This document shows positions 9,642-17,396 of a stretch of DNA of 34,232 nucleotides, piece by piece. Position numbers and translations under genes: made by a program. Source of the stretch: Methanospirillaceae archaeon (GTDB lineage: Archaea; Halobacteriota; Methanomicrobia; Methanomicrobiales; Methanospirillaceae). The notes below the pieces were generated by a model. The model ran no database searches and was not told where the DNA came from. It saw only the letters and a list, made by a program, of their open reading frames with translations. The stretch is from the NCBI GenBank assembly GCA_016926505.1, contig JAFGOM010000099.1:1-34232 (forward strand). The letters run 5' to 3'. Position 1 is the first letter of the stretch. Every line of letters starts with the position of its first letter.

Positions 9642-9899
9642 ATGACCACGAAATCTTATCATATCGGATCTGGATTATTTATTCCTGATTCTCTTCTTAA
9701 AGAGGCAGGCATTGAAAATAATGAAGTTGAGATCGAAATTTCTGATAATCAGATTAGGATTACCTCCCCAAGAATATCAAAAAAATTAAAGAAAGGAGTA
9801 ATAAATCAAGATTCGGAATTCTGGAAGCTGATTGGATTAATAAAAACGCCAGGTGTAGATGGACGGGAACATGATCAATATCTCTACAATACACAATAA
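9642..9899 (+). CDS. AbrB/SpoVT-type antitoxin (VapB-like)
   Basis: The 85-residue protein begins with a swapped-hairpin AbrB-like DNA-binding domain: GSGLFIPDSLLKEAGI (9-24) followed by NNEVEIEISDNQIRI (26-40). The C-terminal part is polar and probably wraps the toxin. VapB-type antitoxins bind their own promoter and inhibit the partner RNase. Its 3' end overlaps the PIN gene by 41 bases in another frame, typical of co-translated toxin-antitoxin genes. Codon use is AT-rich, unlike the metabolic genes further right, which suggests acquisition by transfer. Confidence 0.8.
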   Translation: MTTKSYHIGSGLFIPDSLLKEAGIENNEVEIEISDNQIRITSPRISKKLKKGVINQDSEFWKLIGLIKTPGVDGREHDQYLYNTQ

Positions 9900-10299
9900 A
9901 CTTGTATTTGTTGATACAAGTGCGTTATATGCATTATTTAATGAAAATGATACAGATCATCAATCCGCTGTTACCTGCATGCATGATTTGGTTAATGATC
10001 AATTTACGTTTTTAATTTCAAATTTCATCATAGATGAAATTTACACGCTTCTTCTTACTAAAGCTAATCTATCCACTGCCTTATTTGTTGTTGAATATCT
10101 GATAAAAGAATGGATAATCAAACATGTAGAGACAGAAGATGAAGATAAGGCTTTGAACATCTTAAGGTCATCAATCGATAAAACCTATTCATATACTGAT
10201 GCAACCACTTTTGCTCTCATGGAACGGCTTAAAATAGGCTCTGCTTTTTCATTTGACAACCATTTTTTTCAATATGGACTGATTGTATATCCTAGATAA
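9859..10299 (+). CDS. PIN-domain ribonuclease toxin (VapC-like)
   Basis: The 146-residue protein carries the four acidic residues of the PIN active site: D19 in VFVDTSALYAL, E60 in NFIIDEIYTLL, D114 in YSYTDATTFALM, and D133 in AFSFDNHF. VapC toxins of this kind are Mg-dependent RNases that cut tRNA or rRNA. The ATG at 9859 has AGGTG three bases upstream. An ATG at 9871 is an alternative that brings the start closer to the first strand. It overlaps the antitoxin gene. Its stop lies only seven bases before the right copy of the direct repeat, so this pair sits exactly at the recombination junction. Confidence 0.85.
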   Translation: MDGNMINISTIHNKLVFVDTSALYALFNENDTDHQSAVTCMHDLVNDQFTFLISNFIIDEIYTLLLTKANLSTALFVVEYLIKEWIIKHVETEDEDKALNILRSSIDKTYSYTDATTFALMERLKIGSAFSFDNHFFQYGLIVYPR

Positions 10300-11840: not shown

Positions 11841-13373
11841 ATGGATTTCTCCAGAAAAATTGAGAGTATCGAGAAAGAGATTGGAAGACTCTCTCCCGTG
11901 CAGAAGATCCTGCTTGGAACCGATGGATCGGTGACCCGCCTCCTTGAGATAATAACCGGCAGTGCAGTAACCATACAGACCCGCATCCAGAAAATCATCC
12001 CTGCAGATGCGCCAGTCGCAGAAGATCTTGCTATCAGGGAAGGAGATCCTGTCAATTACCGGGTCGTCGAGATAAAAAACAAAGACTCTCCTGAAGTTCT
12101 CATCTATGCCGTATCCCATACTCCGATAGAACGTCTCTCCCCCGGGATCAGGCTGGATCTGATGCAGGCAGATATCCCGATAGGCAGGATCCTAACCGAA
12201 CACCGGATGGAGACCCGCCGCGAGATAACAGATGCATATACCGCCCTTGCAGACGAGGACTCACGTGCAGTATTCCAAATCTTTGAGAAGGAGACACTCT
12301 TAAACCGGAAATACCGGATTATTCACGATGAAAAGCCGCTCATCTCCATCAGGGAGACCTTTCCTTATACCCGCTTTTGTGATGAGAAACGACTTCTTAT
12401 CGAGGCTCCCTCCCGCCTTCACCTCGGCCTCATCGATATGCATGGAGGTCTGGGCAGGGTTGATGGAGGTATCGGGATAACATTACAGAATCCAAAGACC
12501 CTTCTTGAAATAAAACCTCATGCATCATTGCAGGTGCATGGGACCGATCCCGATTCCGTGAGCGTTGTACGAGACGTCGCAGGCCGTCTTTTTTCACATC
12601 TTGGTATCCGGACGGGAGCTGATATTACGATACGATCCTCGTATGATCGGCATGTCGGTCTTGGAAGCGGTACAAGCCTTGCTCTCTCAACTGCGTATGC
12701 GGTATGCCAGTTGTATAACAAGAGCATGACTATCAGGGATCTCTCACGAATGGTAGGGAGAGGAGGGACGTCAGGTATCGGGACCGGAGCGTTTGAAAAA
12801 GGGGGATTTATCATCGATGGCGGGCACAGTTTTGGGGGGTCCGGGGAAAAAAGCGTATACAGCCCCTCCTCAGCATCATCAGGAGTACAGCCGGGTCCGG
12901 TAACCGTCCGCCATGAGTTCCCTCCTGACTGGAAGATCTGTATTGCCATACCATTTATCCCACCCGGGGCACATGGTCCCGGGGAACAGGATATCTTTAC
13001 CCGGTTCTGTCCTGTTCCAATACACGAGGTCAGAGAGATATGTCATGAAGTCCTCATGCGGATGCTTCCGGCAGTTGCGGATCATGACATCGAACAGTTT
13101 GGACGGGCCGTGAACTCAATACAGAACCTGGGCTTTAAGAAGGTTGAACTCTCACTCCAGCCTGAGTATTATCCCGGGCTGTTAGAAGAGATGCGGTTAT
13201 CCGGGGCTGTCGGTGCAGGAATGAGTTCCTTTGGTCCGGCACTCTATGCGATCTCTGATACCGGCATGGAGGATATCATGCAGGCATCACGACGCTACCT
13301 TGACCAGTATGACGGGGGAGAGGTGTTTCTTACCCGGGCCAGGAACGAGGGAGCGGTAATCAGAAATACCTGA
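11841..13373 (+). CDS. Chorismate-lyase-like domain fused to beta-RFAP synthase (methanopterin biosynthesis)
   Basis: Two domains are visible in 510 residues. Residues 1-175 fit the DUF98/UbiC-like chorismate pyruvate-lyase fold: LLGTDGSVTRLLEIITG (24-40), INYRVVEI-type strand (71-78), and IGRILTEHRMETRREI (114-129), which holds the Arg and Glu expected near the active site. Residues 184-510 are the RFAP synthase branch of the GHMP kinase superfamily: EAPSRLHLGLIDMHG (188-202), the phosphate loop HVGLGSGTSLALS (271-283), and GRGGTSGIGTGAF (307-319). RFAP synthase condenses phosphoribosyl pyrophosphate with a hydroxy- or aminobenzoate, losing CO2, as an early step to tetrahydromethanopterin. 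Lyase activity on chorismate would supply 4-hydroxybenzoate directly. The fusion is seen; substrate channelling is inferred. The synthase alone is usually about 320 residues. cofH follows 27 bp later, so the two are probably one operon. Confidence 0.85.
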   Translation: MDFSRKIESIEKEIGRLSPVQKILLGTDGSVTRLLEIITGSAVTIQTRIQKIIPADAPVAEDLAIREGDPVNYRVVEIKNKDSPEVLIYAVSHTPIERLSPGIRLDLMQADIPIGRILTEHRMETRREITDAYTALADEDSRAVFQIFEKETLLNRKYRIIHDEKPLISIRETFPYTRFCDEKRLLIEAPSRLHLGLIDMHGGLGRVDGGIGITLQNPKTLLEIKPHASLQVHGTDPDSVSVVRDVAGRLFSHLGIRTGADITIRSSYDRHVGLGSGTSLALSTAYAVCQLYNKSMTIRDLSRMVGRGGTSGIGTGAFEKGGFIIDGGHSFGGSGEKSVYSPSSASSGVQPGPVTVRHEFPPDWKICIAIPFIPPGAHGPGEQDIFTRFCPVPIHEVREICHEVLMRMLPAVADHDIEQFGRAVNSIQNLGFKKVELSLQPEYYPGLLEEMRLSGAVGAGMSSFGPALYAISDTGMEDIMQASRRYLDQYDGGEVFLTRARNEGAVIRNT

Positions 13374-13400: not shown

Positions 13401-14522
13401 ATGGACACAGGGAACAATAATACCAGATCAAAAGAGATTCGAACCATCATCTCCCAGGTTCTTTCAGGGCACCGCCTCACGGAAGATGAAGCAGTCCTCC
13501 TCCTGCAATCACGAAACCGGGATATGATGGAAGTACTTGCTGCTGCGGATCAGGTCAGGGAAGAGAAGGTAGGTGACCGGGTCACCTATGTACGGAACTA
13601 TAATATCAATATAACAAATTATTGTGTCAATTCGTGTGGATTTTGTGGTTTTTCGAGAAAAGAACATGATGATGATCTCTATTATTATCCGTTCGAGACA
13701 ATCGAAGCAAAGGTAAAGAAAGCCTTGAAACATGATATTACCGAGATCTGTTCTGTTAGCGGGCTTCATCCCGATTTTAATGCCCAGTCCTACCTTGATA
13801 TTATCACTCACATTCATCATGCCGCTCCTTCTGTTCATATCCATGCCAGTAACCCGATGGAGGTTGCGTACGGGGCAGGAAAGAGCGGTATCCCGACAAT
13901 TGAGATGCTATCCCTGATGAAAGAGGCGGGTCTCGGAACATTGTGCGGGACTGCTGCCGAGATTCTTGTTGATGAAGTCAGAAAGATAATCTGCCCGCAG
14001 AAGGTCGATACACAAACCTGGGAGCGGATCATCAGGGAAGCACACCGTCTTGGTATCAGGTCGACTGCTACCATCATGTTCGGTCATATCGAGTCGGTCC
14101 GGGACCGGGCACGGCACTTAGAGGTTATCAGGAATATCCAGGATGATACCAAAGGATTTACTGAATTTGTACCCCTCTCGTACATTCATTACAACTCTCC
14201 CCTGTATCTCAATGGGATAGCCCGTGCCGGGGCGACCGGTTCTGAGGATCTGCTTATGACTGCAGTAAGCCGCCTGTATCTTGATAATTTCGATAACATC
14301 CAGGCATCCTGGGTCAAGACCGGTACAAAGATGGCCCAGATATCGCTCATTGCCGGGGCAAATGATCTTTCAGGGACGATGTATGAAGAGTCTATCTCCA
14401 AGACTGCAGGAGCGATGAACACCGATTACCTTGATCCTAAAGAGATGAAGCGGATCTGCGAGGATATCGGCAGAACGCTGTACCAGCGGACTACGCTTTA
14501 TGAGATCGTAAAGAAAGAGTAA
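13401..14522 (+). CDS. cofH: Radical SAM enzyme of the CofH type (F420/FO biosynthesis)
   Basis: The 373-residue protein is a COG1060 radical SAM enzyme. The iron-sulfur motif is C75-x3-C79-x2-C82 (NYCVNSCGFCGF), preceded by VTYVRNYNINITN as in CofH. A glycine-rich GTAAEIL segment and the C-terminal motif SKTAGAMNTDYLDP are also family features. CofH joins a tyrosine-derived radical to 5-amino-6-ribitylaminouracil, and with CofG makes FO, the chromophore of F420. The paralogues MqnC and MqnE use the same fold, so the name rests on overall similarity. No cofG is next to it; instead it follows the RFAP synthase fusion at 27 bp. Tails of a lost paralogue lie at 9148 and 10503. No ribosome binding site is obvious. 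Confidence 0.75.
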   Translation: MDTGNNNTRSKEIRTIISQVLSGHRLTEDEAVLLLQSRNRDMMEVLAAADQVREEKVGDRVTYVRNYNINITNYCVNSCGFCGFSRKEHDDDLYYYPFETIEAKVKKALKHDITEICSVSGLHPDFNAQSYLDIITHIHHAAPSVHIHASNPMEVAYGAGKSGIPTIEMLSLMKEAGLGTLCGTAAEILVDEVRKIICPQKVDTQTWERIIREAHRLGIRSTATIMFGHIESVRDRARHLEVIRNIQDDTKGFTEFVPLSYIHYNSPLYLNGIARAGATGSEDLLMTAVSRLYLDNFDNIQASWVKTGTKMAQISLIAGANDLSGTMYEESISKTAGAMNTDYLDPKEMKRICEDIGRTLYQRTTLYEIVKKE

Positions 14523-15848: not shown

Positions 15849-17396
15849 TTAGATCTCCCACCGTTGTATATTCCTTGTTTCCGGGTCAAATACAATCCCG
15901 ATCTCATAGACCTGTCTTGTGTCTGACTGATACTTTTCTGCATAACCACGTTTTTTAATCTGGTCCAGAGGACTTTCATCCCCACTCTTATCGAGACCAA
16001 GCACTTTGAATTCAAAGATAAAGATCCCGGTCCGTGTCTTAACCGTCAGATCTACTCTGCCTTTATTCGTGGTATCTTCTGGAATAACGTCATATCCAAG
16101 GCTTGCAAAATAGGTGTATACCACACTGGCATAATACCCTTCATACCCTGCGATCGGGTTGTTTCTATACCAGTCATAGGGAATGGAAGCAAAGAACGAA
16201 TGAAAACAAGACTGTAATTGTTCAATATCCCTTTGTTCCAGTGCATTATACAACCGGTCACGAATCCCGGAGATATCATGACCACTCAATGCCTCTGAGA
16301 AGAGAAAATTAAGTGATGTTCTGACCTCGGTGTTTGGATAGCCAAGGACGCAGCGAAATCCCCGGATTGGATCAGCAGACCAGGATTTTATCGTCAGGTA
16401 CCCTGCCTGAAAAAGAAGCGTTTCTACCCTTATATACTCAGGATCAAAGGACCCCAGGAGTTCATTACCTGCAACAAGTCCGTCATATTCAGCAGGAAGG
16501 CGGGGGTTTTTCTGCCAGAGGGCGATAAGAAATGAAGGTGTGCCTGTCTCAAACCAGTATGGTCTGAATGTTCTCTCGCCAAAAAAGAGAAGAATATCAA
16601 ACGGATTATAAACCGTTTCCCCTGTCCATGAATACCCGTCATACCATTTTTTCACTTCATCCAAGTCTAAATCAGCTAAATATCCGAAAAAAACGGTTTT
16701 TAGGTCCTCGTGAGTATATCCACATATTGCTGAATATCTGGAGATAAGTGTGATATCCTGCAGGTTATTCAATCCAGAGAATATTCCTGTTTTGGCAAAT
16801 TTAGAAACCCCTGTGAGAAGAACAAACTTGAGATAAAGATCAAGAGGCTTGATTGCTCCATAAAAATTTTTCAGACAATCACGCATCTCCTGCACGAGGC
16901 TTATATCCCCGATATTATCAAGAATCGGTCTGTCGTACTCATCGATGAGGATGACTACCTGTTTTTTTGTTTTTTTTGCGATTTTTGGAATAAGTGAGAG
17001 TAACCGATCCCCGGGATCCCCGGAGCTTTTATCTATCCCATATAATTCTTCCCACTCATCTAGAGTGCCGGTCAATCGATTGAAAAGATCAGAGATATCC
17101 TTAAGCGTCCCCCCTGCAAAATCAACCCTTAAAACCGGATAGGTTGTATTAAAGTCCCACTCTGCCTCAGGAGAATCGAGATACAGCCCAAAGAAGAGAT
17201 CCTTTCTTCCGGAAAACGCACAATCAAGCGTATCGATAAAGAGACTCTTCCCAAACCGCCTTGGACGAGAGAGAAAGTAATACTTCCCTTTTATCACTAA
17301 ATCTGAGATAAACCAGGTTTTATCGACATATGCATATCCTCCGGTTCTCATCTCTGAAAATGACTGGACTCCGATTGGTAGTTTTAAAGGACACAT
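15849..17396 (-). CDS. AAA-ATPase-like protein with C-terminal PD-(D/E)XK nuclease domain
   Basis: The 515-residue protein has the arrangement AAA-ATPase_like (PF09820) plus PDDEXK_9 (PF08011). The N-terminus reads YVDKTWFI, then the P-loop SRPRRFGKS (43-51, K50-S51) and the Walker B motif VVILIDEYD (147-155). The C-terminus has the nuclease-fold motif GRVDLTV (D449) followed by FIFEFKV (E462, K464). The family is common and multi-copy in some methanogens and in Bacteroidetes. Its role is unknown; links to mobile elements or defence have been proposed only from the domains. It is a single gene without an obvious partner, on the strand opposite to cofH. The start at ATG 17396 fits the family N-terminus. 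Confidence 0.85.
   Translation of the reverse strand: MCPLKLPIGVQSFSEMRTGGYAYVDKTWFISDLVIKGKYYFLSRPRRFGKSLFIDTLDCAFSGRKDLFFGLYLDSPEAEWDFNTTYPVLRVDFAGGTLKDISDLFNRLTGTLDEWEELYGIDKSSGDPGDRLLSLIPKIAKKTKKQVVILIDEYDRPILDNIGDISLVQEMRDCLKNFYGAIKPLDLYLKFVLLTGVSKFAKTGIFSGLNNLQDITLISRYSAICGYTHEDLKTVFFGYLADLDLDEVKKWYDGYSWTGETVYNPFDILLFFGERTFRPYWFETGTPSFLIALWQKNPRLPAEYDGLVAGNELLGSFDPEYIRVETLLFQAGYLTIKSWSADPIRGFRCVLGYPNTEVRTSLNFLFSEALSGHDISGIRDRLYNALEQRDIEQLQSCFHSFFASIPYDWYRNNPIAGYEGYYASVVYTYFASLGYDVIPEDTTNKGRVDLTVKTRTGIFIFEFKVLGLDKSGDESPLDQIKKRGYAEKYQSDTRQVYEIGIVFDPETRNIQRWEI

Follow-up and report, generated by a model that had tools for sequence, protein, structure and literature searches.

A chorismate-lyase-like domain joined to RFAP synthase in Methanomicrobiales: a predicted bifunctional start of the methanopterin arylamine branch

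In the window, the whole stretch of 34,232 nucleotides analysed here from a Methanospirillaceae archaeon (contig JAFGOM010000099.1), a single gene joins a chorismate-lyase-like domain to RFAP (RFHP) synthase, and this fusion is old and common. The encoded protein is very probably (probability about 0.86) a bifunctional chorismate lyase/PRPP:4-hydroxybenzoate C-ribosyltransferase acting at the start of the methanopterin arylamine branch. The N-terminal domain would take pyruvate off chorismate to give 4-hydroxybenzoate, and the C-terminal domain would condense this with PRPP to 4-(beta-D-ribofuranosyl)hydroxybenzene 5'-phosphate, releasing CO2 and pyrophosphate; later enzymes would then aminate this product. 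The order of the two steps, lyase and then condensation with PRPP, had been proposed in an earlier note on this DNA and holds, while the activities, the substrate and any hand-over of 4-hydroxybenzoate between the sites are what we infer from the sequence.

The fused gene and its domains

The gene, its parts and its downstream neighbour are located as follows.

11841..13373, + strand: fused chorismate-lyase-like domain and RFAP (RFHP) synthase, one uninterrupted open reading frame with ATG start, 510 amino acids
11913..12368, + strand: PF01947 chorismate pyruvate-lyase (Rv2949c-like) domain, residues 25-176 (Pfam, E=6.4e-27)
12369..12398, + strand: inter-domain junction of about 10 residues, ...ETFPYTRFCDEKRLLIEAPSRLHL, of similar length in 20 of the 21 fused proteins compared
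12399..13358, + strand: RFAP synthase domain (GHMP fold), residues 187-506 (NF040726 above cut-off)
13401..14522, + strand: cofH (F420 biosynthesis), TIGR03551 above cut-off

Both domain calls of the earlier note, which had also proposed a profile search for them with PF01947 and TIGR00144, are borne out by models scoring above their cut-offs. The N-terminal PF01947 domain reaches 94.8 bits (Pfam gathering cut-off 22), with GHMP kinase domains located C-terminal to it, and the C-terminal part scores 374.1 bits with the NCBIfam equivalog NF040726 (cut-off 328, E=5e-112) and 338 bits with TIGR00144 (cut-off 113.5). A PDB sequence search aligns residues 17-180 with 2nwi (AF1396, E=1.5e-32) and residues 186-504 with ForT (6yqq, E=2.6e-30). 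A structure predicted for the full chain with 22 aligned fused proteins as input (mean pLDDT 90.1, pTM 0.86) resembles the same two proteins in separate regions, with a Foldseek TMt of 0.93 for AF1396/2nwi and 0.86-0.88 for ForT. An origin of 11841-13373 as a chance reading frame or an assembly join is out, because full-length fused homologues with 48-56% identity were aligned from 21 other genomes.

In the lyase domain, R74 is aligned by MAFFT with R76 of UbiC (E. coli K-12 record) and is present in 100% of the PF01947 relatives examined. E172, present in 98% of these relatives, is offset by a single column from UbiC E155 in the same alignment, the pairing of the two being a one-column shift made by eye (ETF / ELF). 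R76 and E155 form the catalytic pair of UbiC, and both R74 and E172 are invariant in the 22 fused proteins. Another reading of the N-terminal domain, as a catalytically dead, UTRA-like ligand-binding regulator of the RFAP synthase domain, is highly unlikely. UTRA and chorismate lyase do share a fold, and the PDB sequence search gives a weak match to the regulator 2ikk (E=0.23), but the invariance of the catalytic-aligned R and E argues against such a role, as does the co-occurrence of separate PF01947 genes with RFAP synthase in other families. Moreover, a UTRA-like N-terminus, which the earlier note had itself raised against a lyase, does not appear among the Pfam matches of the reading frame up to E=1.

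Among the residues for the aromatic acid and PRPP in the RFAP synthase domain, R192, R206, H271 and R307 are found in 81/81 aligned sequences, D199 in 80/81 and T278 in 79/81. D199, R206 and H271 are equivalent to D19, R26 and H98 of the M. thermautotrophicus enzyme (MTH0830; numbering transferred by motif spacing), and R192, T278 and R307 to R19, T106 and R135 of ForT (numbering from the PDB-search alignment). Mutagenesis has shown the importance of D19 and R26 in MTH0830 (PMC6787355), and of R19, T106 and R135 in ForT (PMC8183095).

The cofH gene starts 27 bases downstream of the fused gene on the same strand and is probably co-transcribed with it. Among the genomes compared, cofH adjoins the fusion only in this one, and no general conserved neighbourhood of the fusion was found. 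In genome G164 (L066:6354-9626) trpE comes after the fused gene on the same strand and is itself followed by three reading frames of trpG-, trpD- and trpC-like size, that is, a chorismate-using operon as far as assignment by size goes. The window also contains a small overlapping pair of reading frames (9642-10299), the second with a PIN domain and the two possibly a toxin-antitoxin pair, and, on the minus strand (15849-17396), a predicted AAA-ATPase-like protein with a PD-(D/E)XK nuclease domain.

Distribution, history and loss of the fusion

The distribution was surveyed with PF01947 and TIGR00144 in 393 genomes of the window's phylum, a strong RFAP synthase being defined by E<1e-60 and counts being tallied by hand; coverage outside the phylum consisted of 14 control genomes. 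Fusion was deduced from open frames of more than 500 amino acids spanning both domains, where matches were listed, and 21 homologues were read at full length. Among the 83 genomes of Methanomicrobiales, the order for which the earlier note had proposed a survey, both domains are present in 58, neither in 20, RFAP synthase alone in four and PF01947 alone in one, and the domains are fused in 58 of the 83. The fusion extends beyond this order, to all 14 genomes of the Methanotrichaceae-like family f22 and all five of family f12. A scan of genome contigs with P0001 gave one relative, L002 (Methanosaeta sp. UBA204, Methanotrichaceae), which the RFAP synthase tree places within f22. Genomes of family f7 encode the two functions in adjacent but separate reading frames in the reverse order, RFAP synthase and then lyase. 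No description of the fusion was recognised in a full-text literature search judged by title and the start of the abstract, most subscription journals being outside its scope; RefSeq/InterPro may list the architecture.

A strong RFAP synthase accompanies PF01947 in 206 of 209 genomes. Of the three genomes that depart from this, G263 and G307 are incomplete, and G329 is degenerate: its reading frame breaks off close to where the lyase domain ends, with no RFAP synthase frame after it in the stretch read. The earlier note regarded the fusion as direct evidence for the 4-hydroxybenzoate route, a claim that stands in part: the fusion speaks for a functional linkage, but does not amount to proof of lyase activity. 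That 4-hydroxybenzoate serves another product and that the fusion is incidental is extremely improbable. Elsewhere quinones and further products derive from this compound, but the retention of the fusion across Methanomicrobiales, f22 and f12, the adjacency in f7 and the co-occurrence all speak against it. The presence of the fusion in three surveyed groups of the phylum ties lyase and ribosylation together genetically.

The lyase-domain tree requires one change of state between fused and unfused, with the G329 remnant left out. The RFAP synthase tree requires two, because unfused copies of genus g21 sit beside f12, and the AU test does not reject a single clade of all fused copies (p-AU 0.41). 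One old fusion event is the simplest reading of these trees, and transfer of the fusion between groups is possible.

Strong RFAP synthases lacking both PF01947 and UbiC are found in families f14, f16, f19 and f11 and in genera g64, g29 and g61 of family f9, and UbiC was found in 0 of 36 genomes from lineages with RFAP synthase but without PF01947. Since RFAP synthase occurs in some relatives that lack PF01947, this domain is not a universal source of the aromatic acid. A replacement lyase encoded beside RFAP synthase in these lineages was sought and rejected, as the annotated shared neighbours are all housekeeping genes (ribosomal L16, aIF-2 beta, fibrillarin, Nop and dihydroorotate dehydrogenase). 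Genus g21 (L086, L087, L088) has RFAP synthase, but the genomes tested yielded neither the lyase domain nor PF00425 nor UbiC.

About 20 of the 83 Methanomicrobiales genomes, single-contig genomes among them, have neither lyase nor RFAP synthase, and six genera (g2, g4, g13, g16, g24, g25) include both genomes with the gene and genomes without it. Genome G056 is a clean single-gene loss: 193 bp (L145:13474-13667) stand in place of the 1782 bp with the fused gene in G282 of the same genus (L069:5467-7249). TIGR00284 (MJ0301-like), the next condensing enzyme, was found in 46/46 genomes examined, including 18 of the 20 that have neither domain. A TIGR00144-like paralogue was considered as a replacement RFAP synthase and rejected, since the R26 equivalent is missing in 10/10 copies and the R135 equivalent in 9/10. 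A tentative and rather doubtful extension of the bifunctional reading is that 4-hydroxybenzoate is passed between both sites of a single-gene branch head, and that, the fused gene being lost as one unit, the losers that keep TIGR00284 obtain an arylamine precursor from neighbours or use an undiscovered RFAP synthase substitute. The repeated loss raises the question of cofactor exchange or a missing enzyme.

Chorismate or aminodeoxychorismate as substrate

The genome carrying the window has a single PF01947 domain and no match to UbiC (PF04345). Its one chorismate-binding protein scores best with TrpE models, slightly under the equivalog cut-offs, and is encoded in a trp operon with trpG and genes matching trpD, trpC, trpF, trpB and trpA. 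Each of 80 genomes of the phylum likewise encodes at most one chorismate-binding protein, bar two split reading frames. No dedicated aminodeoxychorismate synthase was found in this genome or in the 80 others, which makes chorismate the likely substrate of the N-terminal domain.

This domain might instead act on aminodeoxychorismate and give p-aminobenzoate for RFAP synthase, a reading that appears very unlikely. The elimination chemistry would be analogous, and TrpE could have a side activity as aminodeoxychorismate synthase, but the known lyases for aminodeoxychorismate depend on PLP and have a different fold, and the position of the sole chorismate-binding protein in the trp operon, with at most one in the 80 relatives, argues against this reading. 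The RFAP synthase of M. thermautotrophicus was assayed with p-aminobenzoate and accepts it in vitro, but with a millimolar KM, 3.9 mM (PMC6787355). The use of p-aminobenzoate in that study counts against the bifunctional reading, as do the possible side activity of TrpE with its scores under the cut-offs, the RFAP synthases without PF01947 and the failure of the lyase domain to reach NF037993, the cyanobacterial chorismate lyase equivalog (40.8 vs 175 bits).

The bifunctional reading agrees with the work of White's laboratory, to which the earlier note had appealed for a 4-hydroxybenzoate precursor, in the form in which White 2011 (Biochemistry 50:6041) is cited by others. It is cited for PurB making the methanopterin arylamine from an N-succinyl intermediate (PMC3261824), a step that, as described in that citation, fits amination after ribosylation, and the ForT authors cite it in calling the methanopterin enzyme ribofuranosylhydroxybenzene (RHP) synthase (PMC8183095). 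The debate over p-aminobenzoate or 4-hydroxybenzoate as the start of methanopterin has drawn on in-vitro substrate use and on White 2011 as so cited; to this disputed first step the fusion, as a predicted bifunctional enzyme, would lend strong genomic support. One protein would also allow the whole entry to be assayed from chorismate and PRPP. Methane formation requires methanopterin, and inhibitors of RFAP synthase have been proposed as a means to cut methane (PMC6787355).

Relation to known enzymes

The lyase domain shares family and fold with the standalone PF01947 lyases Rv2949c and AF1396 (2nwi; TMt 0.93, 40-44% identity in the Foldseek alignment), and the positions aligned with the catalytic R and E are kept; those two are separate proteins, whereas the window's protein carries the domain in one chain with RFAP synthase. 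Rv2949c, the namesake of PF01947, makes 4-hydroxybenzoate, for phenolic glycolipid synthesis (PMC7205293). E. coli UbiC would share the proposed reaction and has the aligned catalytic R and E, but belongs to another Pfam family (PF04345) than the fused lyase domain. The methanogen RFAP synthases MTH0830, MJ1427 and AF2089 fall in the same NCBIfam equivalog as the C-terminal part, with the equivalents of D19, R26 and H98 kept, while the fused protein has about 180 extra N-terminal residues with the lyase domain. The C-nucleoside synthases ForT and PyfQ have the same fold and PRPP-binding residues as the fused protein, but ForT has no fused lyase and its aromatic acid is 4-amino-1H-pyrazole-3,5-dicarboxylate (PMC8183095).
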